NCBI GenBank assembly: GCA_950073835.1
Contig: CATMRP010000003.1
Location: forward strand, 1-64,000
Length of the DNA: 64,000 nucleotides
Direction of reading: 5' to 3'
DNA from: an uncultured Alteromonadaceae bacterium
Lineage (GTDB): Bacteria > Pseudomonadota > Gammaproteobacteria > Enterobacterales > Alteromonadaceae
This document shows, piece after piece, positions 1 through 63,349 of this stretch. The translations under genes and the position numbers were made by a program. Numbering within the stretch: position 1 is the stretch's first letter; each line of letters begins with the position of its first letter. Under the pieces are notes generated by a model. The model saw nothing but the letters and a program-made list of their open reading frames with translations. It searched no databases and was not told the DNA's origin.

Positions 1-254
<254 letters not shown>

Positions 255-8839: not shown

Positions 8840-8841
8840 AA

Positions 8842-10245
8842 TCAGCCGAAGTACCCGTGCACGTACCAGTGTTGCTGATCATCCCGATACACCCACAAGC
8901 GCTGACCTTTACCGGTTAAGGCTAAAAAATAGTCCCGCTTTACCGGGTGATCATCCCACCAGCCAGTGTGCACCCGCTCCGGCCCGTAGACAATTTGAGT
9001 CTGCTCGGTTAGCGGTTGAGGTTGAACCATCAGCCAGACCGGTTGCAGGCCGTTAGCTTCTGAACAGGCCGGTGCCTTATGGAGTGCGCAAGCCTGTTGC
9101 ACAACATAGTCCTGACGGTGTTCATTAACCTGTTCAACGGTTTTCACACTGTCGCTGCCGAGTCTGGCCAGCAGTTTGCCCAACAGCATATTTTCAGCGT
9201 GTCTTGAATAGCTGCTTTGCAGCAACGACAGGTTTTCCGGGTCAAACTCAACCAGTTGATCACAGGTTAGGGTGAGCGAGGTGACCGGCGAGTCGAGTTT
9301 CAGTTGCTCAAGCTTAAGATCAATCAGCATTTGCCACTCACTTAAATGGTGGTGAGGGGTACCGGCGTTAACTTTAAACATCAGGTTATCGTGTTCCCGT
9401 TGCTGAAGTTCAAACTGTAAGGTATCGGTGGCCAGATTGCGCTTTTGCAGGTATGCACAATTATTGGCCAGCACAATAGCAATATAACGGCTTAATCTTG
9501 GCGCAGACTCTACCGCATATGGCAGCTCCAGGTACTGACTGAATACCTTTCGTGGATGAAATAAGCTGTATGGCGGCTGCTTTACGCCCTTTATAGCCAG
9601 CAAATAAGTAATGATCTGGTTATTAAAACGTTTGCCAATTTCATCCAGCGGTAACGCAATAAGTTGCCCCAGCGTGCGTATACCAATGCGGTTTAACTGC
9701 TCTTTTTCTTTGCTGGGGAGCTCAGTGGCCTGTAACGAACAATTTTTAAGGTGATTTAGAGCCAGACTCGGCTCGCTCTCTACCCGGTCAAAATGACTGC
9801 GGGCCAGCACCCGGGCAATTTCGATGGTAGCGCCGGAGCCATAGTGAAAGTGCACTTGCCGGACGGTTAGGGATCGTTTGCATAACGCCATGAAATTATC
9901 CAGCCCCTGATAATAAAGTTCCAGCGGACTCAGATTAATGGCGATGCCATTGCTGGCAACGCAGACAATGTCGGAGGCAATCGCATAAAGGGTGGTAGCC
10001 AGCTGCTCTAGCTGACAATTTTCGCTATTGGCGGCATATTCAATAATACAGGTTTGTGCATGAATGGCGGTTATTTCTGCTAAGCCCATGCCTGGTTTAA
10101 TACCAGCAGTGAGGGCCGCTGCCGATAACTGGCACACGGTATTGTCGGTTCCGTCAATCACTACCGTTGGCCCGGTTTGCTCAGGATGAAGCTGCTCGAA
10201 GAGATCGAGCTGCAGACGCGGAAAGTGCAGGTAGAGCCAGTGCAT
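8842..10245 (-). CDS. imuB: ImuB, Y-family polymerase-like mutagenesis factor
   Basis: A 467-aa protein with a Y-family polymerase fold that lacks the catalytic metal ligands. The N-terminus reads WLYLHFPRLQLD, where active enzymes carry a D-x-D-x-F-F type motif. The family is thought to be a non-catalytic hub that links the beta clamp, ImuA and DnaE2. Residues 13-17 read QLDLF, which resembles a clamp-binding peptide, but they lie in the first fold strand and may be coincidental. It lies 4 bp downstream of imuA and 2 bp upstream of dnaE2, a tightly coupled operon. Confidence 0.92.
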   Translation of the reverse strand: MHWLYLHFPRLQLDLFEQLHPEQTGPTVVIDGTDNTVCQLSAAALTAGIKPGMGLAEITAIHAQTCIIEYAANSENCQLEQLATTLYAIASDIVCVASNGIAINLSPLELYYQGLDNFMALCKRSLTVRQVHFHYGSGATIEIARVLARSHFDRVESEPSLALNHLKNCSLQATELPSKEKEQLNRIGIRTLGQLIALPLDEIGKRFNNQIITYLLAIKGVKQPPYSLFHPRKVFSQYLELPYAVESAPRLSRYIAIVLANNCAYLQKRNLATDTLQFELQQREHDNLMFKVNAGTPHHHLSEWQMLIDLKLEQLKLDSPVTSLTLTCDQLVEFDPENLSLLQSSYSRHAENMLLGKLLARLGSDSVKTVEQVNEHRQDYVVQQACALHKAPACSEANGLQPVWLMVQPQPLTEQTQIVYGPERVHTGWWDDHPVKRDYFLALTGKGQRLWVYRDDQQHWYVHGYFG

Positions 10246-10249
10246 TAGA

Positions 10250-10948
10250 CTAACTGACTTCGTGAATGGCAGTTACGTCGTTGCTACTGAACTGCCTGAA
10301 CGCGTTGACAATGGCATCGTTAGAAGCCGGAAGCGGGTGTTCAATGGCAATATGCTGTTGCGGCCAGGCACCGGTTACCCGGTGTAAATCAACAAACCAC
10401 TGCCGCATATCAAAGCTCAGCGCCATATCAATGTTTACCGGCAACGCGCCCGGGCTCCTGTTACCGGGATGTACCAGGACCACCAGGCAGTCGTATTGCC
10501 TCGCCAGTACCTGCAGGCGCCGCGCTGCCTTGGGTTCTACCTGTGCAAGGTAAATCACTATACAACAACAGGCCTGGCTGCGAATGGCCTGTTCGCAAGC
10601 CCATAAGGCATCTGCTTCGTTAGGGGTGTTGACTACCCAGGATTGTTGCTGATAGGGCGTTTGGCACATCCAGTTTGGGTTTAATTGCAACCGGTTGGGC
10701 AACCAGATAATGCGCTTTTGCGTCCCGGCTTTTTGCAACAGCACATTATTCAGCAGTTGTAGTTCGCCTTGCCCGGCAAGTGCTCTGATACTCAGCACGC
10801 CAGAGGCAGGCACACCGCCTGCACAGGCTTTATCCAGATTGGTCTGACCGAAAGGCAGACGCAATTCGCTGCCATCGGCACTGTGGCGATGGTCCCGACC
10901 CCGAAATACCAGGGGATGTTTAATAAGCGAACTGATAGATGCTGACAT
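10250..10948 (-). CDS. imuA: ImuA, SulA/RecA-like mutagenesis factor
   Basis: A 232-aa protein of the ImuA family. It shows a RecA-like core without a proper Walker A. Landmarks are the N-terminal RLPFGQTNLDKACAGGVPASGVLSI region and a hydrophobic strand LVVLVHPG. It is the first gene of the imuA-imuB-dnaE2 cassette and starts 9 bp from the LexA box. In better-studied cassettes ImuA binds ImuB and is required for damage-induced mutagenesis. The assignment rests mainly on its position and length. Confidence 0.85.
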   Translation of the reverse strand: MSASISSLIKHPLVFRGRDHRHSADGSELRLPFGQTNLDKACAGGVPASGVLSIRALAGQGELQLLNNVLLQKAGTQKRIIWLPNRLQLNPNWMCQTPYQQQSWVVNTPNEADALWACEQAIRSQACCCIVIYLAQVEPKAARRLQVLARQYDCLVVLVHPGNRSPGALPVNIDMALSFDMRQWFVDLHRVTGAWPQQHIAIEHPLPASNDAIVNAFRQFSSNDVTAIHEVS

Positions 10949-40483: not shown

Positions 40484-40560
40484 GCACCCGTAGCTCAGCT
40501 GGATAGAGCGTTGCCCTCCGGAGGCAAAGGTCATAGGTTCGAATCCTATCGGGTGCGCCA
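40484..40560 (+). tRNA. tRNA-Arg (CCG anticodon)
   Basis: A 77-nt cloverleaf with encoded CCA. The acceptor stem is GCACCCG/CGGGTGC and the D arm GCTCAGCTGGATAGAGC. The anticodon arm TTGCC-CTCCGGA-GGCAA puts CCG in the middle of the 7-base loop. The T arm is ATAGG-TTCGAAT-CCTAT. Accessory genes begin about 260 bp downstream. I saw no copy of the tRNA 3' end further on that would mark an attachment site. Confidence 0.97.
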
Positions 40561-40817: not shown

Positions 40818-41789
40818 TCAAGTGATAAGGCTGAGCAACTTTTCAGAGCTTATATTTCCTCGGTGAACTTCATCATGGCAAATATTACAAAGTGTAATCA
40901 GGTTTTCTAACAAGTTTTTGCCCCCTTTCGCGTGATGCTCTATATGATGTAGTTCCAGTAGGTTACGAAACCTGTCTGCTTCGTTCCTATTCTGATGGTT
41001 CCAGCCGCAGTTACAGCATGAGTAATCATCTCTTTCTAGCACACCAATACGGACTGGATCAGGTATTTTTCTATCGTGTACTTCGGCCTGTCGATCTTCT
41101 TCTAATACATATATGCCTACGTTAAGGTCAGGACGGCCTGAGACTTTAGTTGCTATTGGCCAACCCTCTTCAGTTCGTAGCTCTCTTACTCGCCTAGGCC
41201 ATTCTGAGCGGTCATTGGCCAAGTATTTCAATTCTTCACCAGTAACTTCTTTGCCAACGTTTTTAAGAAAGTAGTCAATAATTTTACTTTTGACGCCAGC
41301 ATTGTTTTTGCGAATTGTATTAGCAAGTTTCCATCTGTAAGCAGCATCTCTATCTTGATTATTTTCGGTTAGAACGTAGAAATCTTTTTTAAGTAGCTGT
41401 TTTGGATATAGGTTTTCTAAACCTTTGTCATCCTCGATTATGTCTTTTAGAGCCAGTCCAGTCTGAATAGGCCACCCCATTTCAACACGTAACTCCCTGA
41501 TGCGACGTGCATACTCACTAATACCTGCAACGACCATTACCTCGTCTCCAGAAATCAGTGTTGATGGGTATTTTCTAAAATAAGCAAGTATGCGGTCTCT
41601 GGCTGAATTAGTACCGTCCTCATCAATGAGGGAACTTCCCAAGTCTCGAAGCAAGTGATTTGCAGGGATAAGATCTTTGACCTTATCTCGAAGGTCATCT
41701 TCTAACAATTTCGTCTTAAACTTGATCAATAAATTGACTAATTCTTCTCTTAGCGTTTCAGGATCTGTCCGTTGCGACCTTCTAGCCAT
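40818..41789 (-). CDS. HNH endonuclease, probable restriction enzyme partner of the C5 methyltransferase
   Basis: A 323-aa protein with a C-terminal HNH domain (about 240-320): paired CCNC and CNIC zinc-ribbon Cys, LLELHHIEHHAKGGKN, and ITLCNICHDEVH. Upstream there are two copies of a helical (winged-helix-like) unit, about 65-115 and 165-215. Both end in R-R-(I/V)-R-E-L-R-x-E-x-G-W-P-I. The duplicated units probably bind DNA (inference). Its ATG overlaps the methyltransferase stop (TAATG), so the two proteins are translationally coupled, as in type II restriction-modification operons. The recognition site is unknown. Confidence 0.82.
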   Translation of the reverse strand: MARRSQRTDPETLREELVNLLIKFKTKLLEDDLRDKVKDLIPANHLLRDLGSSLIDEDGTNSARDRILAYFRKYPSTLISGDEVMVVAGISEYARRIRELRVEMGWPIQTGLALKDIIEDDKGLENLYPKQLLKKDFYVLTENNQDRDAAYRWKLANTIRKNNAGVKSKIIDYFLKNVGKEVTGEELKYLANDRSEWPRRVRELRTEEGWPIATKVSGRPDLNVGIYVLEEDRQAEVHDRKIPDPVRIGVLERDDYSCCNCGWNHQNRNEADRFRNLLELHHIEHHAKGGKNLLENLITLCNICHDEVHRGNISSEKLLSLIT

Positions 41790-42904
41790 TAAGCAACTCT
41801 TCGTATTTTATGTTTATTAACAAACTCAAGTAGTTCACTAATATAACCGGCAATGTTGCAGGCGAAAATAGGAGGCACAGCATTTCCAATCTGTCTCGCT
41901 ATTTCTATCTTTGTTCCTGAAAACACAAAGTCATCAGGAAAGGTCATCAACCTGGCTGCTTCTCTGTGCGTTATTGGACGGTTGGCCTCTGGGTGGAGGT
42001 AGCGGCCTTTCTCGGGTTTAAAAAACTCGGTACGAATTGTCACTGAGGGACGGTCCCACCATAGTCTGCCAAATAAATCGGTGCCACCAGATTTTTTGTT
42101 TATCCAGCATTTTGGAGTTATATCAGGCCTATTTTTCTGCAAATCGAAACGGTTTCCGCCGAGAGGAACAGCTTTATATCTTTCCTTGCTTATATCAGTA
42201 GGCTTTCGCCCAAAATGCAAGTTAAGAGGACCACTTAGTTCAGCTCTAACTTCTGTGCCTTCAGGCTCTGGGAGATCATGAATAAACTCTTTAACTGTTC
42301 TCCAGGCAGGAAGCTCGCCACCGGTGCTAGGGTTTTGATGTGTTGGTGGAGGAGGGAATGCTGGTAACCTATCAAAACGATCGAAGTGATCAGTTTTTAC
42401 ACCAACAATAATTGCTCTCTTACGAGTTTGAGGCACACCGTAATTGGCAGTATTAAGAACAAGTGGATTTAGAAGCTCAAATCCAAGTTCTAGCGCTCTG
42501 TTATGTATATCATTGAACTCAGAGCTTTTGAGTAAACCTTGAACGTTTTCCATAACAAAAACTGAAGCTTCTGATTGTGCAACAATGTCCATGTATGGTT
42601 CCCATAGCTGTCTACGAGCATCACCATCCCTATTTTTGTTAAGTAGACTGAAACCTTGGCAGGGCGGACCTCCGATAATTACGTCTGCTTTGGGAACTGC
42701 ATTATCCTGCAACCACAATTCTATATTCTCGTGGAAACAATGGTTGTCGTCGCCAAAGTTCGCATTATATGTGGCTACCGCGGCCTCATCATTATCGATA
42801 GCCAAAATACTTTCAAATTCACCGTTAAATCGCTCGTCAACGAAGCCTAGTGACATGCCTCCTGCACCACAAAATAAATCGATGAGTTTGTATTTTTGTT
42901 TCAT
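41789..42904 (-). CDS. DNA (cytosine-5-)-methyltransferase
   Basis: A 371-aa C5-cytosine methyltransferase. All key motifs are present in order: I DLFCGAGGMSLGF (about 9-21), IV GGPPCQGFS with the catalytic Cys (about 78-86), VI MENVQG, VIII QTRKRAIIVG, IX REAARLMTFPDDF and X QIGNAVPP. The target-recognition region (about 180-290) is variable. It should protect the host from the coupled HNH nuclease. Its promoter carries a LexA box, and its base composition is more AT-rich than flanking housekeeping genes. Confidence 0.95.
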   Translation of the reverse strand: MKQKYKLIDLFCGAGGMSLGFVDERFNGEFESILAIDNDEAAVATYNANFGDDNHCFHENIELWLQDNAVPKADVIIGGPPCQGFSLLNKNRDGDARRQLWEPYMDIVAQSEASVFVMENVQGLLKSSEFNDIHNRALELGFELLNPLVLNTANYGVPQTRKRAIIVGVKTDHFDRFDRLPAFPPPPTHQNPSTGGELPAWRTVKEFIHDLPEPEGTEVRAELSGPLNLHFGRKPTDISKERYKAVPLGGNRFDLQKNRPDITPKCWINKKSGGTDLFGRLWWDRPSVTIRTEFFKPEKGRYLHPEANRPITHREAARLMTFPDDFVFSGTKIEIARQIGNAVPPIFACNIAGYISELLEFVNKHKIRRVA

Positions 42905-49659: not shown

Positions 49660-51720
49660 TTAAAATTGGGCGGTCAGGCCGAAGTAAAAGCTGCGACCCG
49701 GGGCGGGCTCGAAATAACCCCGACTGCTTACTTCCCGGTCGGCATTAGCGTTTACTCTGACATTCGAAAAATACATCTTATCGAAAAGATTACGCACACC
49801 GGCCTGAATTCGCAAAGTAGAAGTAACATCATAGCCAACCCGGCCGTTCACCAGCCAATACTGTGCTATTTCCGTTGTATTGCTGTTTTCTGCATAGTAG
49901 TTACCGCTGAATGTACCTTCCAGTTCCACTCGCCATGCATTTTGTTGCCAGTTGAGCTGATTAACCCATTGAATTTGGGGTAAGCCTGGCATCCGGTTGC
50001 CATCCAGGTTGTCGCCGCTGAGTGCGGCAAAGTCACCAAACTCATAGCGGGCAAGTGTCAGCGCGCTACGCCATTGCCAGCGTTGGTTAAGTTGCCACTG
50101 AAGGGCCGTTTCAAGGCCATGGCGATTGGTCTTGCCGGCATTTTCATAAAATGCCCGACCGTCAATCTCGTAGGCAATGAGTTCGTCGGTAACGCGGATG
50201 GAAAACAGCGCTACATCATAATTTAAATCGTTGTACTGGCCGCGCCAACCGAGCTCAAGACTCAAGGTATCCTGGGGTTTTAATACGGGATTGAAGCCGC
50301 TGCCCTGCGGGTTGGCAAACTCAGTAAAGGTAGGTGACTCATAGGCTGAAGCAACATTGGCGTACCATTGGTGTTGCGTGCCTGGCCGATAGCTTATACC
50401 AATGTTGCCATTCCATTGGTGATAGTGGCGCTCGCCTGAGCCTACCGCACTAAGGCCGAGCCGGTCGTTTATCGACATTGCAAGATCATCATAACGCACG
50501 CCGGTGGTCAGGGTGAGGGTGTCAAAGAGCAACCAGTCGACAATGGCAAATACGCCAACTGAAGTGGCTTGCTGCAATTCATCTGCGGTTTGCTGCTTGA
50601 CAACTTTATCCGGAGTGACTCTAAATCGGGTGCGGTCGTCTTCCTGACGGCGGATTTCTGCGCCTGCGGTATACCTTACTGGCCAGCCAGCGTTCTGCCA
50701 GTCCTGAGAAAGCTCAATACTGCCGCCATAAAACCAACGGTCGTACCTAATCAGACTGCTGCCAGGAAAGGGTAGCTGCTGGGTAAAGTTGCGATGGGTA
50801 GCAAAGGTATTGGCAGACCAGCTGCCATGCAAGATGTCCTTATCGTGGTATACCAGTCCGATGGTTTGCTGTGCCACTTGCTGCCCGCTGTTTAGTCTGC
50901 TGGCCATAAAGGTAGCCTGGCGTCGATCTGAAGTCACTTGCGCGGCGGTAAGGCCTCCCGGATCCTGTGCTTCAGGCATATCCATCAGCGAGGTGATTAT
51001 CGTAAAGCTTTTAGTGTCACTGAGGTCCCAGCGCAGTTTACCGCGCAGGGTACTTTTCTTTACCTGACTTTGTTCGCGGTAGCCGGCAAAGTTAAGGTGG
51101 CTCATGCTGATAACCGCGTCGATGTCGTTCTCGCTGGTGCCAGCCTGCAGGTTTACTTTATAAAAATCATGGCTGCCGACATTCAGGCTGGCATTAACTC
51201 CTTGCAGGCTATCGCCGGTCACAGTGGTGATATCAATTGCACCGCCAGCACCATTACCGTACTGCACCGCTGCTGCGCCCCGGATAACCTGTAATTGTTC
51301 GACGCTGTTTAAATCGATATCATCCACCTGGGTTTGGCCATCAGGCAATGTGTAAGGGATGTCATCAACCTGCAATTGCAGGCCGCGCACACCAAACGGA
51401 GCGCGCGAACCGAAACCGCGGATGGATATCCGCAGGTTTTGAGCAAAGTTATAGCGATTCTGAAAATATACGCCAGGCACAAATTGAAGCGCTTCGTCTA
51501 ACTGCAGTGCTTCCTGCAGTTGCAGTTCCTGCCGGGCATCGAGTAGCGAAACTGCCGCAGGGGTAGCAAAGAGATCCCGTGATAATCTCGTTGAAGTTAC
51601 TTTTACTACTTCAATATCTTCAACTGCTGGTGGTCCCGCAGAGGGTGTTACTGCTGCAGCCAGCAGAGGCGGGCTCATGAGAAGTAGGGTTAGTGAGGTC
51701 ATTAAGTGATGCTGAGTCAT
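49660..51720 (-). CDS. TonB-dependent receptor, PqqU (YncD)-like, candidate PQQ importer
   Basis: A 686-aa outer-membrane receptor. The ATG at 51720 (MTQHHLMTS) has AAGG upstream; an ATG at 51777 would add 19 residues before the signal peptide. Plug domain: ATPAAVSLLDAR, QNRYNFAQNLRISIRGFGSR, GVRGLQLQVDDIP and PDGQTQVDDIDLNSVEQLQVIRG. Barrel: DPGGLTAAQ, ENAGKTNRHGLE, GNRMPGLPQ and an end in YFEPAPGRSFYFGLTAQF. Many of these blocks match my memory of E. coli YncD, now known as the PQQ importer PqqU. Being the last gene of a PQQ-dehydrogenase operon supports that substrate. I have not aligned the sequences. Confidence 0.88.
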   Translation of the reverse strand: MTQHHLMTSLTLLLMSPPLLAAAVTPSAGPPAVEDIEVVKVTSTRLSRDLFATPAAVSLLDARQELQLQEALQLDEALQFVPGVYFQNRYNFAQNLRISIRGFGSRAPFGVRGLQLQVDDIPYTLPDGQTQVDDIDLNSVEQLQVIRGAAAVQYGNGAGGAIDITTVTGDSLQGVNASLNVGSHDFYKVNLQAGTSENDIDAVISMSHLNFAGYREQSQVKKSTLRGKLRWDLSDTKSFTIITSLMDMPEAQDPGGLTAAQVTSDRRQATFMASRLNSGQQVAQQTIGLVYHDKDILHGSWSANTFATHRNFTQQLPFPGSSLIRYDRWFYGGSIELSQDWQNAGWPVRYTAGAEIRRQEDDRTRFRVTPDKVVKQQTADELQQATSVGVFAIVDWLLFDTLTLTTGVRYDDLAMSINDRLGLSAVGSGERHYHQWNGNIGISYRPGTQHQWYANVASAYESPTFTEFANPQGSGFNPVLKPQDTLSLELGWRGQYNDLNYDVALFSIRVTDELIAYEIDGRAFYENAGKTNRHGLETALQWQLNQRWQWRSALTLARYEFGDFAALSGDNLDGNRMPGLPQIQWVNQLNWQQNAWRVELEGTFSGNYYAENSNTTEIAQYWLVNGRVGYDVTSTLRIQAGVRNLFDKMYFSNVRVNANADREVSSRGYFEPAPGRSFYFGLTAQF

Positions 51721-51823
51721 ATTGGCCTTGCTGATTCTGTCGTTAGTTGCCGATGTGTCGCGAACAGGTGAGTTCACGCAGTCATCGCTCTATTGGGGTT
51801 ATTGCCGTTTTGCGGGCAGGGGA

Positions 51824-52972
51824 TCAGGGACGAAAGCGAACATGTTCCCGTTGCAGGTCCTTTATGCTGCTGCAGCCCATGAGTCGCATGTCGCGTTCAA
51901 TTTCAGCCTGCATGAGCTTAAGGACCCGCTCCACACCTGGCTGTCCGGCCGCCGCCAGTGCATACAGGTACATCCGCCCTATTCCCACCGCTTTAGCGCC
52001 CAGCGCCAGTGCTTTAAGTACATGTGAGCCACGCTGCACGCCGCTGTCAAAAAGAACGTCGATATCATTGCCTACAGCGTCGACAATTTCGGCCAGTTGA
52101 TCAAAAGAGCTGCGTGAGCCGTCAAGTTGGCGTCCGCCGTGATTAGAAATCACGATACCGGTGCAGCCAATATCTACGGCACGTCTGGCATCTTCAACGC
52201 TCATAATGCCTTTTAAACAAAACTGACCATCCCAAAATTCAACCATGTCAGCCACATCCTGCCAGTTCATTGCCGGATCCAGCATATTGGTAAAATAATC
52301 ACCGATAGAGCTGCTGCCGCCGTCCATGTCAATATGGGCCTGAAGTTGTGGTAGGGAGAATTTTTCGTGGAGCAGATAGTTGATGCCCCAGGCGGGTTTA
52401 CGGGCAAATTCAACCATGCCGCCCAGGGTCAGACGAAAGGGTATCGAAAAGCCGGTACGTAAATCCCGCTCCCGATTGCCACCGGTGATTGAGTCTACCG
52501 TCAGCATCATAACTTGTATGCCACTGGCTTTCGCCCGTTCCATCATGGCCCGGTTAAGCTCGCGGTCTTTATGAAAATAAAACTGATACACCTGGGGAAT
52601 ATCAAAATCCTGTGCAATTTTCTCCATCGACACGGTGCCCAGCGACGACACACCGAACATGGTGCCAAACTTTTCGGCGGCGGCCGCAACTGCATATTCA
52701 CCTCGGTGGTGATATAACCGTTGTAGGGCGGTCGGAGAGCAGTACACAGGTAATTCAAGCCGCTGACCCATCACCTCAATACTCAGATCAACATCTTTGA
52801 CACCGCGAAGTACCCCGGGAATTAAATCACACTGATTAAAGGCTTCAGTGTTACGCCGCATGGTTACCTCGTCATCGGCACCGCCGTCGATGTAATTATA
52901 GATTGGGCCGGGCAGGCGTTTTTTCGCCAGGGTTCTGAAGTCCTGATAGTTATAGCATTGATTCAAGCGCAT
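51824..52972 (-). CDS. FMN-dependent alpha-hydroxyacid dehydrogenase (lactate dehydrogenase-like)
   Basis: A 382-aa flavoenzyme of the LldD/glycolate-oxidase family. Landmarks are the N-terminal YNYIDGGADDE, the FMN loop SPTALQRLYH, the Lys in FCLKGIM, the catalytic His and Arg in SNHGGRQLDGS, and the phosphate site DSGVQRGSHVLKALALGAKAVGIGR. It oxidises an L-2-hydroxyacid such as lactate to the 2-keto acid, passing electrons to quinone, cytochrome or oxygen. It lies 22 bp after the di-haem fusion and upstream of the receptor. Confidence 0.92.
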   Translation of the reverse strand: MRLNQCYNYQDFRTLAKKRLPGPIYNYIDGGADDEVTMRRNTEAFNQCDLIPGVLRGVKDVDLSIEVMGQRLELPVYCSPTALQRLYHHRGEYAVAAAAEKFGTMFGVSSLGTVSMEKIAQDFDIPQVYQFYFHKDRELNRAMMERAKASGIQVMMLTVDSITGGNRERDLRTGFSIPFRLTLGGMVEFARKPAWGINYLLHEKFSLPQLQAHIDMDGGSSSIGDYFTNMLDPAMNWQDVADMVEFWDGQFCLKGIMSVEDARRAVDIGCTGIVISNHGGRQLDGSRSSFDQLAEIVDAVGNDIDVLFDSGVQRGSHVLKALALGAKAVGIGRMYLYALAAAGQPGVERVLKLMQAEIERDMRLMGCSSIKDLQREHVRFRP

Positions 52973-52994: not shown

Positions 52995-55900
52995 TTACTG
53001 CGATAGGGTTGGGGGCGAAGATGAGCGTTGCTCAGTAGTTCCCCGATCGGCCTGGATGTATAAAAACTGGTTAGCCGGAATATTGTGAAACGTACTGACA
53101 CTTCCTGTTTTGTCTGGCCATTCAATAGTAATGATGTCGGCCTGGCTGGCGTCACCCAAACCAAAGTGCAGGGTAGACGGCGCACCGCTTAAAAATCCGC
53201 CGCCTGCGCGTACTTCCTGCAACTGGGTAGTGTTGCCGGTAGTCACATGCACTTTAGCGCCCAGTGCCCGGGTGTTTTGCGTACTATCGCGCAGGGTAAT
53301 GGATAAGTAGTTGTTGCTGGCGTCATCGTTGTGACGATTGGCATACAGTACCGGTCGCTGTTCGTGGTTACTGACCACAATATCCACATCACCATCCCGG
53401 TCGTAGTCCATGCAGACCACGCCGCGGCCAGAAAAGGTATCGGTGATCCCCCACTGACGACTGCGTTCTGTGAATGTACCGTCCTGATTAGAAATAAACA
53501 GCCGACTCGGGGTATTCTCAAACTCAGCCATGGCCTGCTTCAGGCGACGATACGCCAGCGGGTTACCAAGGTGGCGGCTAAGTTGTGGCGGCAGATCAAA
53601 ACCGTTAACGTGAAATAGATCCAACCAGCCATCGTTATTAAAGTCGGCAAAGCATGCGCCCCAAGCCCATAGCCCTTCGGCCACACCAGCCTGTGTTGTT
53701 GCATCCTCCAGCCGACCCTGGTGATTGTGGTACAGGCGGTTACCACTGACCCCCCAGCTACCTTCCGGCTTGCCATTCGGATCCCAGATACTGCTTACAA
53801 ACCAATCCAGGTAGCCATCGTTATCATAGTCTGCAACGGCTGCCCCCATGCCATTCTGATCTGAAATCTCATGGGTGTGGGTCTCTTTAGCAAAGGTACC
53901 GTCGCGGAGGTTTTTATACACCTGGCTGGTTTCAAAATCTGCTGCAAACAACAAATCCAGCCAGCCATCATTATTGATGTCGGTAAAGTTAGCGGTAAAT
54001 GTAAAGTCTGCATTGCCTACCAAATCTGTAAGGCCTGCCTCGGTATCCAGGCCTTCAAACCAGATCCCCTCCGAGCTGCTTATGTTGCGCCACAGGTGGG
54101 TTGGCTGTTCGCCGCCCAGTCCGGGGCCGCGCCAATGGTTGGTCAGCATGTCAACGGTGCCATCTTTATTGACATCGGCAAAAGCAAAAGACCAACTGGT
54201 AAGCTGTATTTGTAATCCGATGTCAGCGGCAACATGCAACTTTTGTTGCGCATCGTTGAGGTATAACGTGGGAAGCTGGGAGTCTGGCAACTGCATCTTT
54301 TGACCGGTGATGGATGGCAGTTCGGGCTGTAGCAGATTAGAGGTGAATAAATCCAGATCGCCGTCGCCGTCAATGTCTACCATGGCTGCACCGTTAGACA
54401 GTTCAACGCTGGTTAATCCCCACACTGTACTGACATCGCTAAAGGTGCCGTTTCGTTCATTTTTATACAGTACGTCTGCTGCCGCGTCGCCGGTTGCAAA
54501 AAATAGATCCGGCCAGCAGTCACCATCAATATCGCCGGCCGCCAGTCCACCGCTAAAGATCAGGCGTTGTGCCGAAGACAGGGTATAGTTCTCCCAATTG
54601 ATGTGATGTTTGTGAGCTAACCCGGCACTCACAGCGACTTCATCAAAGCGTTTGGCGCTTTGATGGCGGCTATGGTACTTGGCGAGAGACTGATGCGTCG
54701 GCGCAGAGCGGGAACAGCCAAATGCGTCACCGCTAAGCAACGCAGCAGGGAGCGCCGGGCCCGGGACCTGATGAGGCAGACTGGTGTGAGTTGCCTCCAG
54801 GTGTATGGCTACAGGTTGAGGGGGAGGCATATGGCCGCGAAATTCTGCTACGAGGCGGAGCTCGTCAGGGGCTGATGCATTGCTATCAGGTACCCATTTC
54901 GCCATACAGGCTCTATCGGTAATACAAGGATCGGTAAGGCTGGCTAGAAAGGCCTTTAAATCGTCTAGCTGCGTTTCTGTTAGGGTCAGGCCGGCAGGCA
55001 GCAGGCTGCTGCCTGCGGCTTGCTCCCGGTTAAGCTGAGCCAGTGCACCCTGGGTGTGTTGTTTACTGTCGCTAAGCAACCCGGCAACGTGCTTCAATTG
55101 CGGGTTGTTAGCAAAACTATAGTCAAACTGACTAACCGACTCATCCGGTGCCAAATGATGCGCAATGATGGCATCAAGATCCGTGAAAGCGCCAGCGTGA
55201 GTGTAGGGAGCGGTTGCCGTCACGTTTAGTAGTGAAGGAGTACGAAATCCGTATCGGTCTTTGTCTTGTTGTGTTACGCCGCGGCGGCCAAAATCTTCCC
55301 CATTGGGTTGTTTACCACGTCCAATCTGCACCGCAGCAATATTATGAAATTTCTCATCTGTAAAAATTGGCGGCGTATGGCAGTTTATACAACCTGCACC
55401 GCCCTTATCCGGACTGGTTAAAAATAGCTTTGCGCCGCGCTTCTGACTGGCCGTCAGCGCGTTGGTTTTACCGTTAACATAGTCAAACCAGGGGGCATCC
55501 AGCAAGATTTGAGTAGACTGATAATAGGAGATAGCAGTTTCGATATTGGCAAATGTAATCAGCGAATTCGGGCTGCCAGTGGGTGAGGCGAAGGCCTGCC
55601 GAAAGAGCTGCAGCCACTGCTGTACATTTTCGCTTTGTTTGAGCCGTTCGATCAGCGCGTGGCGTACCCCATCGTTAGTACTGTCGGCAGCAAAGGTATG
55701 GCCACGCATTTCATCGGTGGATATCACCGGAAAGCGCACCTGAGTGGCGAGTAAATCGCGTCCTGCAGAGCTATCGCCCTGCCACAAATTACTATCCGGT
55801 GTCCGGTGGCGCTGATCTTCACCATGGGAGCGTAAGGTCGGATCAAGCACAAAAATGCGCCCGTCATAAAACATCGAGCGGCTGTATAATGACGCGTTAA

Positions 55901-56315
55901 ACGTGGTTTGAGAGTGTCTGGCAACATTGGGTGTACCGTCAGCTTTTGGATCGGCCGAACGCTGCCAGTCATGCCAGCGTCCGGGTCCTACCCAATTGTC
56001 ATTATACGGTGACTCGCCAACCGGCAGGCTGAGGCTATCGCCCCCGGCAAGATATGGATGATGGCAACTGGCGCAGGCAACATCCTGATTACCGCTGAGT
56101 GATTTACTAAAGAACAGCTCCATGCCTAACCGAAACATTGGTGTTTCAGTTGACGGCGACACAGTATCAACCGTAAATGCATAAGAATCACTCAAGCTGT
56201 CTAACAGTTTGCTCAGCGCCTGCTCTTCATTGGCTTCCAGCCGCGCATTGCCACTGGCGCTGAACAGCGTCAGCAGTGTTACCATATATACCTTACCGCG
56301 ACCAATGAGCCCCAT
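52995..56315 (-). CDS. Fusion protein: di-haem MauG/cytochrome c peroxidase + FG-GAP repeats + ASPIC/UnbV domain
   Basis: A 1106-aa secreted protein. After a signal peptide (1-24), residues about 30-480 form a MauG/CCP-like di-haem module with haem sites CASCHH (81-86) and CINCH (309-313) and the conserved FRTPSLLNVTATAPYTHAG (about 358-375). A linker follows to about 580. Residues about 580-1000 hold at least six FG-GAP/VCBS calcium loops (for example DIDGDCWPD, DIDGDGDLD, DVNKDGTVD, DYDRDGDVD). The end (about 1010-1095) is an ASPIC/UnbV domain (GAKVHVTTGNTTQLQEVRAGGGFLSG). Each part is known separately; their fusion beside a PQQ dehydrogenase is unusual. It may accept electrons or modify a partner. 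Confidence 0.9.
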   Translation of the reverse strand: MGLIGRGKVYMVTLLTLFSASGNARLEANEEQALSKLLDSLSDSYAFTVDTVSPSTETPMFRLGMELFFSKSLSGNQDVACASCHHPYLAGGDSLSLPVGESPYNDNWVGPGRWHDWQRSADPKADGTPNVARHSQTTFNASLYSRSMFYDGRIFVLDPTLRSHGEDQRHRTPDSNLWQGDSSAGRDLLATQVRFPVISTDEMRGHTFAADSTNDGVRHALIERLKQSENVQQWLQLFRQAFASPTGSPNSLITFANIETAISYYQSTQILLDAPWFDYVNGKTNALTASQKRGAKLFLTSPDKGGAGCINCHTPPIFTDEKFHNIAAVQIGRGKQPNGEDFGRRGVTQQDKDRYGFRTPSLLNVTATAPYTHAGAFTDLDAIIAHHLAPDESVSQFDYSFANNPQLKHVAGLLSDSKQHTQGALAQLNREQAAGSSLLPAGLTLTETQLDDLKAFLASLTDPCITDRACMAKWVPDSNASAPDELRLVAEFRGHMPPPQPVAIHLEATHTSLPHQVPGPALPAALLSGDAFGCSRSAPTHQSLAKYHSRHQSAKRFDEVAVSAGLAHKHHINWENYTLSSAQRLIFSGGLAAGDIDGDCWPDLFFATGDAAADVLYKNERNGTFSDVSTVWGLTSVELSNGAAMVDIDGDGDLDLFTSNLLQPELPSITGQKMQLPDSQLPTLYLNDAQQKLHVAADIGLQIQLTSWSFAFADVNKDGTVDMLTNHWRGPGLGGEQPTHLWRNISSSEGIWFEGLDTEAGLTDLVGNADFTFTANFTDINNDGWLDLLFAADFETSQVYKNLRDGTFAKETHTHEISDQNGMGAAVADYDNDGYLDWFVSSIWDPNGKPEGSWGVSGNRLYHNHQGRLEDATTQAGVAEGLWAWGACFADFNNDGWLDLFHVNGFDLPPQLSRHLGNPLAYRRLKQAMAEFENTPSRLFISNQDGTFTERSRQWGITDTFSGRGVVCMDYDRDGDVDIVVSNHEQRPVLYANRHNDDASNNYLSITLRDSTQNTRALGAKVHVTTGNTTQLQEVRAGGGFLSGAPSTLHFGLGDASQADIITIEWPDKTGSVSTFHNIPANQFLYIQADRGTTEQRSSSPPTLSQ

Positions 56316-56334: not shown

Positions 56335-56796
56335 TTACTTAATAGCGCTAACTGCGCTGCAACTACTGCCGCGCAAAAACTGGTTATTCACCAGCCGAAT
56401 TTCCAGGCCATCAGCAGACGGGCGGATGCGGTTTATCTTTACATCGCCCTGATAAAGCGTGCGGGTTTCGCCTTGTTCGCGACCAATATCTTTGCAGTTC
56501 GGGCTGTAATAAGCGGCATACTCGGTTTTTTCTGCCTGCTTTTTCTCGAACACGGTAACCACTCCGGTGCCACATTCCGCCATTGCGTAGATATCATCAT
56601 CCTGTGCGTATACCTGTACAGGTTTTGCTTCTTCGTCATTTATCCAGTGAATATGTTTATCTGGCGTACGGACAAAAAAGCCGCCCTGGCAACTCACGCC
56701 TGTCATTGGCTTAGCGGCACTGATTGCCTGGCTGCAAAACAACGTCATTAGCAGACCAGTGGTAACAGGAAGCATTAATTTATGTTTGTTGTTCAT
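56335..56796 (-). CDS. Small secreted Cys-containing protein of unknown function
   Basis: A 153-aa protein with a signal peptide (about 1-28, ISAAKPM). The mature part is about 125 residues with four Cys (GVSCQGG, AECGTG, SPNCKD, GSSCSA), which could form two disulfides. I recognise no family. It sits inside the operon, 12 bp after the Rieske gene and 19 bp before the di-haem fusion gene, so it is likely an assembly factor or subunit of the same system (inference). No haem or metal motif is visible. Confidence 0.72.
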   Translation of the reverse strand: MNNKHKLMLPVTTGLLMTLFCSQAISAAKPMTGVSCQGGFFVRTPDKHIHWINDEEAKPVQVYAQDDDIYAMAECGTGVVTVFEKKQAEKTEYAAYYSPNCKDIGREQGETRTLYQGDVKINRIRPSADGLEIRLVNNQFLRGSSCSAVSAIK

Positions 56797-56808: not shown

Positions 56809-57450
56809 TTATCTGGGGGGCTTACCAAAGCCAATCCAACTATTAAAGTTGCCTGCCACCACTATTTCGTCATTCTCAACTTTGAGCGGTAATGCGGGCA
56901 GGTTTCGCGGTGCTGGGCCGGCCATCACAACTCCACTGTCTTTGGGGTTAAACACAGACTGGTGGCACGGACACATGTAGTTTTCCTCGTCTGTCATCCA
57001 GCCGGTAACCGGGCAGCCAGCATGGGTACAGATGGCTGAATAAGCCACCACACCACTTGCCGATAGTGCCTTGGTGTCATTGGACAGCTTGCTCTCGGGG
57101 AGCTTTTGCAGCAGCACCTGGTTGTAGCGCGAGCCGTCGCGGACAATGTTATTCTGCGCGTCGTAGGGCAAAATTAGCTGTTGTTTGTCGAGTTCGGCCA
57201 AATCGGATAGTTTTATAATCTGGCCGCGTTTGCTTTTACTGAAATACGTCAATCGGTCGCCGGGTTGTGGTGGCAGTCGCTCAGGTCGGTTCTGAGCAGC
57301 TGACAGCTTGCCGCTGACAGAGAGGTTGGCAATAGGAATGGCAAAGGCCAGGTACTTCAGCATGTCCCGACGAAAGCCATTATCTGGTCCATCATAATCC
57401 GCCTGGCAGCACCGGGATTGCCTGGCATTGTCAGATGTACGATTTGTCAT
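56809..57450 (-). CDS. Secreted Rieske [2Fe-2S] protein
   Basis: A 213-aa Rieske protein. The ATG at 57450 (MTNRTSDNARQ) follows AAGG; earlier in-frame codons are not conserved. Cys and His ligands are intact: CTHAGCP and CPCHQSVF, with the usual spacing. The N-terminal segment (FRRDMLKYLAFAIPIANLSVS) looks like a Tat-like signal anchor, though the twin-Arg (FRRD) is not ideal. It resembles a bc1 Rieske subunit, but no cytochrome b or c1 gene is present. Probable role: electron transfer from the PQQ dehydrogenase (inference). Confidence 0.9.
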   Translation of the reverse strand: MTNRTSDNARQSRCCQADYDGPDNGFRRDMLKYLAFAIPIANLSVSGKLSAAQNRPERLPPQPGDRLTYFSKSKRGQIIKLSDLAELDKQQLILPYDAQNNIVRDGSRYNQVLLQKLPESKLSNDTKALSASGVVAYSAICTHAGCPVTGWMTDEENYMCPCHQSVFNPKDSGVVMAGPAPRNLPALPLKVENDEIVVAGNFNSWIGFGKPPR

Positions 57451-57543
57451 AGGATACCTTCTTACTTCTTTATTGAATCTGTTTATGTACAACGAACCTG
57501 GAAGCCGGCGCCAATGCGCCGACTTTCGTGACCTCAAAAAGGC

Positions 57544-59340
57544 CTAATCCGGCAGTGCAAAGACCCAGATCACCCCGCCCTCAGGGACATCTGCGATCCA
57601 TTCACCAGATTCATCTTTGTCGGCCAGAACACTGTTGGTCCAGTGTGCGTCTACGCCATAGCCAGCGGTAATAGCGATATATTGCTTACCATCAACTTCA
57701 TAGCTCACAGGGGGCGCAATGGCCGTTGAGTTAAGCGGGAATTCCCACAATACTTCGCCGCTTTCGGCGTCAAAGGCGCGTAGTATCCGGTCGTTAGTAC
57801 CAGCACCAAACACAATGCCGCCTGCTGTCGATAGCACAGGGCCCCAGTTCATGGTTTTGCCAAAGTCGTGTTGCCAGACTTTTTCGCGGGAATTGATATT
57901 CCAGGCCTGAAGTTGACCTACACCCTTGTTAGGGTCATCAAGGTAAACATCGAGGTCGGGAATATCGATGCCAGCCCAGAATTGCCCGGATGCAGGTTCA
58001 ACATCATCCTGAAATTTGCCGAGGAATGAGTTACATACGTTGTCATTGGCCGGCACATAAACCATGCCGGTTTGCGGATTATAAGACTCGTAAGGCCAGT
58101 TTTTACCGCCCCACAGACTAGGGCAGTAATCCACCCGTTTACCCGTGACCGGAACATGATCATAGTCGTAGGTAGGGCGACCGGTTTTTTTATTGAGCGA
58201 CTTAAAGGCGTTATTTTTAACAAAGGGTTTGCCTTCAACATAACCTATTTCACCGTCGTCACTGCGCTCCAGCCAATACATGTAGCCATTACGCTGAGGT
58301 GAGACCAGGCCCTTAACCGTTTTGCCATTTTGTTTAAAATTAACCAGCATTGGTGCATTCATGGCGGCCCAGTCCCATGAATCATTGTAATGGTACTGGA
58401 AATGGCCTTTGATCTTTCCGTTGTCCGGGTCCATGGCAATCGATGAAGCCACATAAAGGTTATCCCCGGGACGCTGATCACCGAGCCATGGTGAGCCGTT
58501 ACCCACTCCCCAGTAAAGTATGTCGGCCTCTGGATCGTAGTTACCCGGCATCCACATGCTTCCGCCACCATATTTCCATGCGTCGGGGCGTTTTCCTTGT
58601 TTTTTCCAGGTTTCATGACCTGGCTCCCCCGGACCTGGCACGCTGTATGTGCGCCATGCCTGTTCACAGGTTTCGGCGTCCATCGCTTCTAAAAAGCCCC
58701 GCACGCCATACTCGCCGCCAGACGGGCCGACCAGTATTTTGCCTTTCACCGGAGTGGGCGCCGAGGTGATATAAGCACCGATACTCCAGTCACCAATCTG
58801 CGCCTGACAAATGCGTTCCCCGGTTTTGGCATCCAGCGCATTCAAAGTGCCATCAAGTCCGGCGACATAGACTTTGTCGTCCCATAAGGCAATGCCGCGG
58901 CTGGTGTTATGCATCACCGACAGATCATAAGGATTGTCATGCTTATAGCGCCAGTAAACCTGCCCGGTTTTGGCATTCAAAGCGATCACGTGATTGTAGG
59001 GTGTTGATACAAACATGACGCCATTATTGACCTGGGCGGGTGCCTCATGGCCGGAGTCCAGGTTGGTGGAGTAGGTCCAGACAGGTGTGAGCTTTTTAAC
59101 ATTCTTTTTATTAATTTGCTGAAGTTCACTGAACATCCAGCCTTCGTAATTCCCTTTGGGTAGCAACCAATCTTTGGGGTTTGCTTCGTTTAACCGCTTT
59201 TGCGTGACAGGTGTGTAGTCTTCAATTTCTTTTGTTAGCTTGGTCAGACCGGCGGCTGATGCATATGAGCTAACCATGATACCTGCTAACCCCAGACAGC
59301 AACTAAGGTAGCTCAGGTGTGGAGCACTAGTTTTTTTCAT
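57544..59340 (-). CDS. PQQ-dependent alcohol dehydrogenase (quinoprotein, type I)
   Basis: A 598-aa periplasmic quinoprotein with an eight-bladed propeller and signal peptide (1-30, ASAAG). Propeller W motifs recur (ALNAKTGQVYWR, ALDAKTGERIC, AFDAESGEVLWEF). Metal and active-site positions: Glu210 in GGEYGVRG, Asn281 in GNGSPW, and Asp323 in SWDWAAMN. Asp-Trp-Ala lacks the second Asp of lanthanide enzymes, so Ca2+ is expected. The usual adjacent Cys pair is replaced by MHNTSRG (143-149). No haem domain follows, so a separate acceptor is needed. It is the first gene of the operon. Confidence 0.93.
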   Translation of the reverse strand: MKKTSAPHLSYLSCCLGLAGIMVSSYASAAGLTKLTKEIEDYTPVTQKRLNEANPKDWLLPKGNYEGWMFSELQQINKKNVKKLTPVWTYSTNLDSGHEAPAQVNNGVMFVSTPYNHVIALNAKTGQVYWRYKHDNPYDLSVMHNTSRGIALWDDKVYVAGLDGTLNALDAKTGERICQAQIGDWSIGAYITSAPTPVKGKILVGPSGGEYGVRGFLEAMDAETCEQAWRTYSVPGPGEPGHETWKKQGKRPDAWKYGGGSMWMPGNYDPEADILYWGVGNGSPWLGDQRPGDNLYVASSIAMDPDNGKIKGHFQYHYNDSWDWAAMNAPMLVNFKQNGKTVKGLVSPQRNGYMYWLERSDDGEIGYVEGKPFVKNNAFKSLNKKTGRPTYDYDHVPVTGKRVDYCPSLWGGKNWPYESYNPQTGMVYVPANDNVCNSFLGKFQDDVEPASGQFWAGIDIPDLDVYLDDPNKGVGQLQAWNINSREKVWQHDFGKTMNWGPVLSTAGGIVFGAGTNDRILRAFDAESGEVLWEFPLNSTAIAPPVSYEVDGKQYIAITAGYGVDAHWTNSVLADKDESGEWIADVPEGGVIWVFALPD

Positions 59341-59875: not shown

Positions 59876-61870
59876 ATGATGAAACAAACTTCGCAATCTA
59901 TGGACGTTAGTGGTGCTGAAACATTTATGTCGGCCGAATTTCAGCTTCGAAATATTCAGCCGACAGAACCGATTTCCCGCTCATGGCAACGTAGCTTGCT
60001 AAAGCACGGCCTTGATCCGCATGCGACCAATGAGGTTGAAGTTTTATCGTCCTCAGAGATGCGATTGCAATTGCAGCAACAGGAAGACTATTTAAATATT
60101 GCCCGGCAGGGGCTAACTGGTTTATCCAAGCGAATTTCCGATGCAGGCTACTCGGTAGTGCTAACCGATGCTACAGGGTTAACCCTGGCGACAAATCTAC
60201 CTGATCGGGAAAAAGTCCGCAGCAAAGAATCCGGATTACTCATCGGGGCGCGTTGGGCGGAAGATCAGGTAGGTACCAATGGTATTGGTACCTGTCTGGT
60301 TGAAAAAGAGTCGATTATTATTCACCGGGATGAGCACTTTTATCCCAGTCACAGAGACTTAAGTTGTTCCGTTACCCCTATATTTGATCCAATGGGGGAA
60401 TTACGTGGCTGCCTGAACGCGTCATGTCTTGGCGCTGACAAAAACAGAAGCAGCCAGTTTATGACGCTGCAAATGGTCATGATGTACGGTCGAATGATTG
60501 AAAACAGTTATTTTCGCAAGACCTATCGTAATCAAATGACGTTGAATATCCGTCCGGCGGAAAGCTTTTTCGATTTGGCGCAGGAGCAGCTATTAGCGGT
60601 TAACGAAAGAGGCGTTATCACCGGGGCAAATCGTTCGTCATTTTTTGAATACTCGTCACTGCTGCCAACTGATCAACTGCTACCGGGGAGCCGGTTACAA
60701 GATATCATTGGTATTTCTATTGATGAGTTACTTACCAAAACAAACGGCGGTAGCAATGTTATAAAGGTTTATTCGCCGCTATTACTGGAAGAGATTGAAC
60801 TGGCATTGCGGGTGCCTGGTTCCCGGTCGGTGGCGTCTGCATCGGTTCGGACTGCTGCTAAAGCAGCCTCTCCCTTAACGTCAGGAAAGCATCCTTCACT
60901 GAACGAGTTAGGTGGTGAAGATCCACGGATGCAAAGAATCGCGCGACAGGTTCTGCAAGTTATTGATAAAGACATTCCAATTCTAATTACCGGCGAGACC
61001 GGCACGGGTAAGGAAGCCTTTGCCAGGGCAATCCATGATGCCAGTGCACGGGCCGACGGTGCCTTTATCGCATTAAATTGCGCTGCCATTCCTGAAACGT
61101 TGATAGAAAGTGAGCTATTTGGTTATCGCAGCGGCAGTTTCACTGGCGCCAATAAAAATGGTATGAAGGGCAAGCTGGAACTGGCCAATGGCGGAACCCT
61201 GTTTTTAGATGAAATTGGCGATATGCCTGTGCAACTGCAAACACGCTTGCTACGTGTGTTGGCAGAACGGGAAACAATGCCATTAGGTGCCACCGAGCCG
61301 ACGGCTTTGGACTTACAGGTTATTTCTGCCACCCACCAGGATCTGCGAGCGCGTATAGACCAAAAGGAGTTTCGGGAAGACTTTTACTACCGCCTCAATG
61401 GCATGGCTCTGAAACTGCCACCGCTAAGGGAGCGTACTGATAAATCGGCTATTATTGCCAATGTAGTAAGACGGGAGCTACAGCACTTGGGTGATTATCA
61501 AATTGATGAAAAGGCTCGCCAGGCTCTGGAAATGTATCACTGGCCTGGCAACATACGCCAGCTAATGAGCGTGTTGAAATATGCCGCTGCGGTGAGCGAA
61601 AACAATTTGATAACGCTTGATAGTTTGCCAGATGAGATTCTCGATCATCATTCGCTGGATACGTTAGATACGGAGCAAGAGACTGGCGTTGTCAAACAAA
61701 AGGCTTTGTCTAAGTATGCAGGCAGTCACGAAGGTCAGTTATTATTAGACACGTTAAAAAAACACCGGTGGAATATTACAACGGTGTCAGAAGAGCTCAG
61801 TATTTGCCGTTCAACGGTCTACCGAAAAATGAAAAAATACAATATTGTACAGCCTAACGATATTTACTAA
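59876..61870 (+). CDS. AcoR-type sigma-54-dependent transcriptional activator
   Basis: A 664-aa enhancer-binding protein. A GAF-like sensor (about 75-215) is followed by a linker, then an AAA+ domain (about 345-570) and a C-terminal Fis-type HTH (about 625-660, WNITTVSEELSICRSTVYRKMKKY). Walker A is GETGTGKE (373-380) and Walker B GGTLFLDEIGDM. The sigma-54 contact loop reads GSFTGA (420-425) where most have GAFTGA. AcoR relatives respond to alcohols, acetoin and similar compounds. It is divergent from the quinoprotein operon and upstream of a porin with a sigma-54 promoter, which it likely controls. GGAG precedes tandem ATG codons. Confidence 0.92.
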   Translation: MMKQTSQSMDVSGAETFMSAEFQLRNIQPTEPISRSWQRSLLKHGLDPHATNEVEVLSSSEMRLQLQQQEDYLNIARQGLTGLSKRISDAGYSVVLTDATGLTLATNLPDREKVRSKESGLLIGARWAEDQVGTNGIGTCLVEKESIIIHRDEHFYPSHRDLSCSVTPIFDPMGELRGCLNASCLGADKNRSSQFMTLQMVMMYGRMIENSYFRKTYRNQMTLNIRPAESFFDLAQEQLLAVNERGVITGANRSSFFEYSSLLPTDQLLPGSRLQDIIGISIDELLTKTNGGSNVIKVYSPLLLEEIELALRVPGSRSVASASVRTAAKAASPLTSGKHPSLNELGGEDPRMQRIARQVLQVIDKDIPILITGETGTGKEAFARAIHDASARADGAFIALNCAAIPETLIESELFGYRSGSFTGANKNGMKGKLELANGGTLFLDEIGDMPVQLQTRLLRVLAERETMPLGATEPTALDLQVISATHQDLRARIDQKEFREDFYYRLNGMALKLPPLRERTDKSAIIANVVRRELQHLGDYQIDEKARQALEMYHWPGNIRQLMSVLKYAAAVSENNLITLDSLPDEILDHHSLDTLDTEQETGVVKQKALSKYAGSHEGQLLLDTLKKHRWNITTVSEELSICRSTVYRKMKKYNIVQPNDIY

Positions 61871-62143: not shown

Positions 62144-63349
62144 ATGCAGTTTAATAAAATAGTACTAGCCACTTCTGCCTTAGCGCTGACTTATTTTAGT
62201 CCGGCTTCTGTTGCGCAGGAAAAAAGCCGGATTCAGTTGTCTGGTGCGGTGATGCAAAGTTGGCAGGCGGGGATGGAAGTCGACGGCGCAGCGGCGGACC
62301 CGGGCAATGCTAACACTGACTCTGGTTTTCATCGTTTGCGCTTTGCGTTAAATATTAATGCGCAGTTGACAGACAAGCTATCCGTTTTTGCCGAACTCGC
62401 CGAGGAACCCAACGACTGGAATAACGGCAGCGCTGCTATCAGCCAGGATTTAGCGTGGATACAGTATCAGATTAATCAGGAGGTGGGCGTCAGGCTGGGT
62501 AATATGATCGCTACCACGCAGAACTTCCTGCGCTACTCTGATGGTGCGGCAGTGCAAAGCAACCCATTTGTTGGCAATAGCCTGGTTGACATGATCACCG
62601 CAGAAGAAGGATTGTGGCTATATGGGGTACATAAACTGGCAGGCGGCAGCAGTATTACCTGGGACGGTACGTTGTCGACCCCGGACTTTTTCGCGGACTT
62701 TTCTGACGGACGAGGATACAACTACGGCTTACGCGGGACCTATAATTTAAGCAATGGTTTATCGTTTGCCGCAGGTGTTTTTTCCACCAATCATGAAATG
62801 AGTGCTGTAGAAGGGAAGACCGCTGGCTCGTTGATTGCTGTGGGAGACGGCGATAACTATCAGTTTGCCAGTTCGGCTCCGAATGCCAGAGTAACCCACC
62901 CGTTGATTGTGCCGGGCGTTGACGCCTTTATCTGGCAGGCTGATGTCCAATACATGACCGATACAGTTATGTTTCATGCCTTGTACGGGAGTGCAAAAGA
63001 CGATTATAGCTGGGAAAATGGCCAGGGGGCGTTTCAAACCAGCTATGTAGAACAGGAATCTGAAATGAAGTTTTGGTCTGTAGAAGGGCGCTATATGATT
63101 AATTCAGAGTTTTATGTTGCGGCCCGTTACGCCGAATCAGATAACGAAAGTGTTGGTATTACTGGCAATAACACCGCAAGCCGTTTGCAGTTGGGCGGCG
63201 GCTGGTGGATGAATGATTTCACGTTATTCAAAGCTGAATATGTTACGCAAGAGGAAGAACAGTATTCCGGAGGCGGTACTGCAGCATTCGGTGCTGCTGG
63301 TGGAGCAGAGTGGGACGGTATTATCGTTGAGATCTCAGTGACGTTTTAA
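62144..63349 (+). CDS. Outer-membrane porin, sigma-54 controlled
   Basis: A 401-aa beta-barrel porin. Signal peptide 1-24 (ASVAQEK); the first strand is SRIQLSGAVMQSWQAGMEVDG. Many alternating strands follow, and the chain ends VEISVTF, with the C-terminal Phe of a BAM substrate. It resembles porins of substrate-specific uptake loci, and its position suggests it admits the alcohol or its precursor (inference). AGGGG lies 10 bases before the ATG at 62144. An out-of-frame ATG at 62139 is closer to that site and would give only a heptapeptide. Confidence 0.88.
   Translation: MQFNKIVLATSALALTYFSPASVAQEKSRIQLSGAVMQSWQAGMEVDGAAADPGNANTDSGFHRLRFALNINAQLTDKLSVFAELAEEPNDWNNGSAAISQDLAWIQYQINQEVGVRLGNMIATTQNFLRYSDGAAVQSNPFVGNSLVDMITAEEGLWLYGVHKLAGGSSITWDGTLSTPDFFADFSDGRGYNYGLRGTYNLSNGLSFAAGVFSTNHEMSAVEGKTAGSLIAVGDGDNYQFASSAPNARVTHPLIVPGVDAFIWQADVQYMTDTVMFHALYGSAKDDYSWENGQGAFQTSYVEQESEMKFWSVEGRYMINSEFYVAARYAESDNESVGITGNNTASRLQLGGGWWMNDFTLFKAEYVTQEEEQYSGGGTAAFGAAGGAEWDGIIVEISVTF

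Follow-up and report, generated by a model that had tools for sequence, protein, structure and literature searches.

What could an exported di-haem domain of the MauG/cytochrome c peroxidase (CCP) type be doing in one chain with an FG-GAP propeller, inside an operon for PQQ-dependent alcohol oxidation? A gene encoding such a protein lies in the window analyzed here, a stretch of 64,000 nucleotides from an uncultured Alteromonadaceae bacterium, a marine Alteromonas.

A single-frame fusion gene in a PQQ alcohol dehydrogenase operon

The original prediction, made from the letters of the window, described an unbroken frame of 1106 aa at 52995-56315 and gave no strand. The ORF reading agrees and places this single open frame on the minus strand; a plus-strand reading of the same positions was ruled out by abundant stops throughout. 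All three predicted parts were recovered by Pfam in one chain, namely, CCP_MauG (residues 61-284, E 1.6e-24), whose 87.7 bits against a gathering score of 25.6 place the domain in the PF03150 superfamily, FG-GAP_3 (five stretches, E 1.8e-45, 153.8 bits, above cut-off), and UnbV_ASPIC (residues 1017-1085, E 2.3e-20, 72.7 bits, above cut-off). The two CXXCH haem sites are likewise present, as are the calcium-loop repeats, in the form of seven Dx[DN]xDx3D motifs at residues 595, 647, 714, 779, 829, 891, and 970. The proposed secretion is in line with an exported N-terminus that can be read from the sequence. By the same kind of reading, many stand-alone relatives carry a lipoprotein-like LxxC, unlike the fusion, which has no lipobox. 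This anatomy and the evolutionary pattern of the gene are the points that we hold with the greatest confidence. The features of the fusion are as follows:

52995..56315, minus strand: MauG/CCP - FG-GAP - UnbV_ASPIC fusion gene, 1106 aa (ORF, Pfam, intact orthologues)
56247..56315, minus strand: predicted N-terminal export signal lacking a lipobox, residues about 1-23 (sequence reading only)
54846..56156, minus strand: di-haem CCP/MauG domain, residues about 54-490 (Pfam PF03150, profile matches)
56061..56075, minus strand: haem-1 site CASCH, residues 81-85, with distal Gln192 and Glu202 kept (sequence, alignment)
55377..55391, minus strand: haem-2 site CINCH, residues 309-313 (sequence, alignment)
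55155..55157, minus strand: His387, predicted sixth ligand of haem 2 (profile alignment with CCP Met275 and MauG Tyr294)
54552..54845, minus strand: inter-domain linker, residues about 491-588, the least conserved part (sequence comparison)
53286..54551, minus strand: FG-GAP propeller, residues about 589-1010, containing the seven Ca-loop motifs (Pfam, motifs, model, Foldseek)
53061..53267, minus strand: UnbV_ASPIC domain, residues 1017-1085 (Pfam)

Gene order and domain matches also bear out the earlier placement of the fusion inside a PQQ-quinoprotein operon. On the minus strand, the genes run from the PQQ alcohol dehydrogenase through the Rieske protein, a 153-aa protein, the fusion, and an FMN hydroxy-acid enzyme to a TonB receptor, with gaps of 19 bp between the fusion and the 153-aa gene and 22 bp between the fusion and the FMN gene. 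The operon contains no small cytochrome c gene. The neighbors are as follows:

57544..59340, minus strand: PQQ-dependent alcohol dehydrogenase that has a Ca-type DWA motif and lacks the vicinal Cys pair
56809..57537, minus strand: Rieske 2Fe-2S protein, closest to the Rieske domain of Thermus bc1, whose signal looks twin-arginine-like; translation may actually begin further in
56335..56796, minus strand: 153-aa exported small protein of no known family, in which four Cys and one Trp are conserved
51824..52972, minus strand: FMN-dependent alpha-hydroxy-acid dehydrogenase/oxidase (lactate/glycolate type)
49660..51777, minus strand: TonB-dependent receptor, nearest NCBIfam model PqqU, far below cut-off (337 of 1200 bits)
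59876..61870, plus strand: sigma-54 activator, divergent
62144..63349, plus strand: conserved porin-like-looking protein, divergent, that travels with the operon (linkage in orthologous loci) and has no Pfam match

An AldA-type aldehyde dehydrogenase lies just past the window, at contig position 64033-65514, and a D-lactate dehydrogenase and an LctP-family lactate permease are found near the operon of Alteromonas sp. C1M14, which has no FMN gene. This gene content fits a pathway from an alcohol or diol, the presumed substrate, to an aldehyde, a hydroxy acid, and a keto acid. The idea that the TonB receptor serves mainly to scavenge PQQ was set aside, given that the genome has its own pqqE and that the score is far below the PqqU cut-off. 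The 153-aa protein gave a low-confidence, all-beta model with no PDB match at E <= 0.001 and weak propeller-like matches only.

The fusion is intact and conserved in independent genomes

An assembly error merging neighboring genes, which had been named as an outcome that would overturn the original prediction, was next considered. In A. macleodii Te101, whose genome was completed with SMRT reads (PMC5864184), plasmid pTE101a carries this operon with a fusion protein of 97.8% identity. The same fusion, in largely the same gene order, is found in Alteromonas sp. C1M14, Pseudoalteromonas arabiensis, and Pseudoalteromonas sp. CO133X. An orthologue with 51% identity in a Hyphomicrobiaceae MAG has the same fusion on a contig that also carries the quinoprotein, Rieske, 153-aa, and FMN genes. 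The dN/dS values obtained against the Te101 copy, 0.13 in the MauG part and 0.07 in the propeller, show that purifying selection acts on both halves. An assembly or frameshift artefact was rejected on the basis of the intact fusion in independent records, including the SMRT-completed plasmid, and of the low dN/dS in both halves. The fusion is real.

The contig opens within a 23S rRNA gene (window 1-502), followed by the 5S, and is therefore probably chromosomal, in contrast to the plasmid-borne counterpart operon of Te101 (97% identical). Because a tRNA (40484-40557) and a C5 DNA methylase gene (41789-42904) separate housekeeping genes from the operon, the latter may lie on a mobile island. 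Elsewhere in the window (5780-10948), a weak ImuB-like match adjoins the gene for a DnaE2-like polymerase of the DNA polymerase III alpha type, and the two possibly form a mutagenesis cassette.

Di-haem and propeller domains are joined in several bacterial groups

All fusions in which the di-haem domain precedes the propeller form one clade (97/96), with the members from PQQ operons nested inside it (100/99). Two forward fusions found outside any PQQ operon (L041 and L145) are sister to these members, and their electron donor must therefore differ. Other arrangements also exist. The two domains occur in reverse order in one chain in a SAR324 MAG, and as overlapping propeller and di-haem genes, ordered as in the reverse fusion, in a Chloroflexi MAG; the di-haem domains of these two MAGs group together (96/95). 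Di-haem and propeller are encoded by adjacent genes in a gammaproteobacterium (G137), and two more distant gene pairs were found (G030 and G052). Across 80 loci and 1223 frames, all 8 of the 8 strong propeller matches were in or beside a di-haem gene, a count biased by the scan itself, whose two queries were a MauG peptide and a propeller peptide; the di-haem/propeller gene pairs come from a whole-genome search independent of this two-peptide scan. The fusion is thus a real join that recurs in several bacterial groups. In the open-access literature, we found no paper joining MauG with UnbV. A relative of the di-haem domain from Vibrio (L022, 8851-11085) has a PPC domain in the propeller's place and a Tyr at the haem-2 ligand position.

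Predicted haem ligation favors a peroxidase-type site

The profile of the di-haem domain matches CCP, MauG, an MbnH-like protein, BthA, and hydrazine synthase gamma. Its nearest NCBIfam models are MauG-like families, all below cut-off, with 86.1 bits against the 443.85 of MauG TIGR03791. At the sixth position of haem 2, His387 is aligned with CCP Met275 and MauG Tyr294, so that the fusion has neither the Met of classical bacterial CCPs nor the Tyr of MauG; the distal Gln and Glu of classical CCPs are both present (Gln192 and Glu202). Among 34 relatives, the ligand position holds His in 28, Tyr in 3, Asn in 2, and Met in 1, and the neighboring position 386 also takes Tyr, Gln, Thr, and Trp. All 34 keep the distal Glu, and 32 keep the distal Gln. 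According to the alignment, the inter-haem Trp of CCP and MauG is replaced by Tyr150 in the fusion. Haem 2 is predicted to be a bis-His electron-transfer haem (His313/His387) and haem 1 an intact peroxidatic haem.

In BthA, changing the Tyr ligand to His abolished the bis-Fe(IV) signal while peroxidase turnover was kept (PMC6405878), and the equivalent change in MauG also abolishes this signal, as cited in the same study. Because the fusion has a predicted His ligand, MauG-type protein modification appears less likely; the His at the haem-2 position, combined with the kept Gln/Glu pair, favors peroxidase-type chemistry instead.

A whole-protein AlphaFold model of moderate confidence (mean pLDDT 72, pTM 0.54) was good in the propeller and weak in the haem-pocket region, and the haem ligation proposed here hence rests on alignment. 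The top Foldseek match of this model was murine CRTAC1 (9etn, E 1.3e-25, TM 0.73 by target length), which assigns a CRTAC1-like fold to the predicted propeller, followed by di-haem peroxidases such as MacA (E about 1e-8).

The alcohol-oxidation genes also occur without the fusion

Three Paracoccus plasmid loci encode a quinoprotein (73-76%), a Rieske protein, a homologue of the 153-aa protein (31-32%) that keeps the same four Cys and Trp, a regulator, and aldA; no fusion or MauG-like match was found on these plasmids, to which the search was confined. In Roseomonas, Methylobacterium, and genomes G373 and G151, a Rieske gene adjoins the quinoprotein gene, and the stretches read contain neither the 153-aa gene nor the fusion. 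No fusion match was found genome-wide in the near-complete genomes G373 and G151 or in four whole plasmids. Since the core genes also occur with no linked fusion, the latter looks accessory and is probably an add-on enzyme rather than the essential electron acceptor of the alcohol-oxidation genes.

The vicinal disulfide of quinoproteins has been tied to electron transfer to cytochrome c550 (PMC12997753). The corresponding Cys pair is absent in 10 of the 10 quinoproteins compared (from the window, two other operon copies, and the seven fusion-less loci), and a Rieske gene is nearby in all ten cases. The genome from which the window comes encodes two further quinoproteins that do have the pair, one of them near a PedF-type cytochrome c550 gene. 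The Rieske protein is thus the likelier acceptor, given a quinoprotein with no vicinal Cys and a Rieske gene near all ten. These observations suggest that Cys-less PQQ alcohol dehydrogenases near Rieske genes (L170-L176 and window 56809-59340) constitute a Rieske-coupled class, whose members include Ca-type (DWA) and lanthanide-type (DWD) forms. In the open-access literature, Rieske proteins appear with quinoproteins in incidental papers only.

Possible roles of the fusion protein

Our best explanation, which we put forward tentatively, is that the fusion is an exported di-haem enzyme of the peroxidase type with a CRTAC1-type docking propeller, added on to a PQQ/Rieske core. In this core, composed of the PQQ alcohol dehydrogenase, the Rieske protein, the 153-aa protein, and the aldehyde dehydrogenase, electrons would pass from an alcohol or diol to the quinoprotein and then to the Rieske protein. 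The fusion would draw on this quinoprotein/Rieske pool, feed electrons via the His313/His387 haem 2 to a putative peroxidatic site at haem 1 (distal Gln192/Glu202), and thereby act as a periplasmic reductase of peroxide or a similar small oxidant. The seven-bladed, Ca2+-loop propeller would most likely dock the electron donor or the target. A His/His haem is usually at low potential, which could disfavor electron flow from the Rieske cluster. The fusion itself, its conservation, its domain homologies, the residues found at the ligand position, and core genes with no linked fusion are observations, whereas ligation state, reaction, electron donor, and propeller role are what we infer for this protein. 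We have moderate confidence in a peroxidase-type reaction and little in the identity of the propeller's partner; a docking role is plausible.

The original prediction had offered two other roles, a secreted di-haem electron acceptor and an enzyme maturing the Cys-containing small protein, and neither is favored by the distribution of the genes. As the direct acceptor of the quinoprotein, the fusion would replace cytochrome c550, in keeping with an operon devoid of a small cytochrome c gene, with the missing Cys pair used for cytochrome c550 transfer (PMC12997753), and with the tight linkage in every Alteromonas and Pseudoalteromonas copy. However, the Cys-less quinoproteins of Paracoccus, Methylobacterium, Roseomonas, G373, and G151, which have a Rieske gene close by but lack a linked fusion, argue against this role, as do the two near-complete genomes and four whole plasmids with no fusion match, and a mere carrier would need no conserved peroxidatic residues; we consider it improbable. 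A MauG/MbnH-like maturase, oxidizing residues of the 153-aa protein, the quinoprotein, or the Rieske protein while the propeller holds the partner, is unlikely but less so. It draws on the shared superfamily and the MauG-like, below-cut-off NCBIfam neighbors, on the invariant Trp and Cys of the 153-aa protein, and on the 153-aa gene being present, in samples of 399 and 296 genomes, only in two genomes that also hold the fusion. Nevertheless, the Paracoccus homologues keep these residues on plasmids with no MauG-like match, and the predicted ligand is a His instead of the Tyr needed for bis-Fe(IV).

Other chemistry at haem 1 can also be envisaged. A hydrazine-synthase-like or RoxA-like bis-His di-haem protein with a propeller could act on substrates other than peroxide (e.g., NO or O2), as the profile of the di-haem domain distantly matches hydrazine synthase gamma (5c2v_C, E 3e-5). 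In hydrazine synthase, too, a MauG-like subunit with a bis-His haem works together with a seven-bladed propeller subunit, the two being sometimes fused, and clusters of its homologues carry CRTAC1-family genes (PMC12758564; PMC12607021). We regard this as very unlikely, however, because the propeller of the fusion matches CRTAC1 and integrins whereas that of beta-gamma is reported to resemble YVTN and PQQ domains (PMC12758564), the CCP distal Gln/Glu are kept, and no alpha-subunit-like protein was recognized in the Pfam and NCBIfam scans of the operon proteins. There is, lastly, a small chance that the fusion represents a previously undescribed module, assembled repeatedly from a bis-His di-haem domain and a CRTAC1 propeller that presents a partner or substrate for new redox chemistry, and recruited here to a Rieske-coupled PQQ chain. 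The peroxidase-type add-on remains the reading that we prefer.

Comparison with known systems

Bacterial di-haem CCPs (PF03150; P. aeruginosa 1eb7, Geobacter MacA) resemble the fusion in their two c-haem sites, distal Gln and Glu, and overall fold as judged from profile and model, but the fusion differs in having a haem-2 His instead of Met, an inter-haem Tyr instead of Trp, a longer intervening segment, and an appended propeller of 500 aa. MauG, BthA, and MbnH belong to a common superfamily with the fusion and supply its nearest, below-cut-off NCBIfam models; in the fusion, their Tyr ligand is replaced by His, and no modified substrate protein is evident. Both bacteria and animals commonly have CRTAC1/ASPIC propellers. 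Murine CRTAC1 (9etn), the best structural match, has the FG-GAP propeller and UnbV end in common with the fusion, in which, by contrast, the propeller is joined to an enzyme domain. A propeller covalently tied to a recognizable redox enzyme offers a concrete partner with which CRTAC1/ASPIC function can be tested.

Hydrazine synthase beta-gamma and its homologues (PMC12758564) also combine a propeller with a MauG-like di-haem domain, sometimes in one chain, and have a bis-His electron-transfer haem as predicted for the fusion, which nonetheless differs in its propeller type, its opposite domain order, and its kept CCP catalytic residues. At the level of the operon, the ped/exa systems of Pseudomonas (PMC12997753) likewise have a periplasmic PQQ alcohol dehydrogenase that feeds an aldehyde dehydrogenase, but they rely on cytochrome c550 (PedF) and a vicinal disulfide, whereas the operon described here has a Rieske gene and no vicinal Cys. 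The comparison hints at a second class of PQQ alcohol dehydrogenases in which a Rieske protein seemingly takes over from cytochrome c550 and the disulfide, a testable claim on how these widespread PQQ enzymes hand over their electrons.
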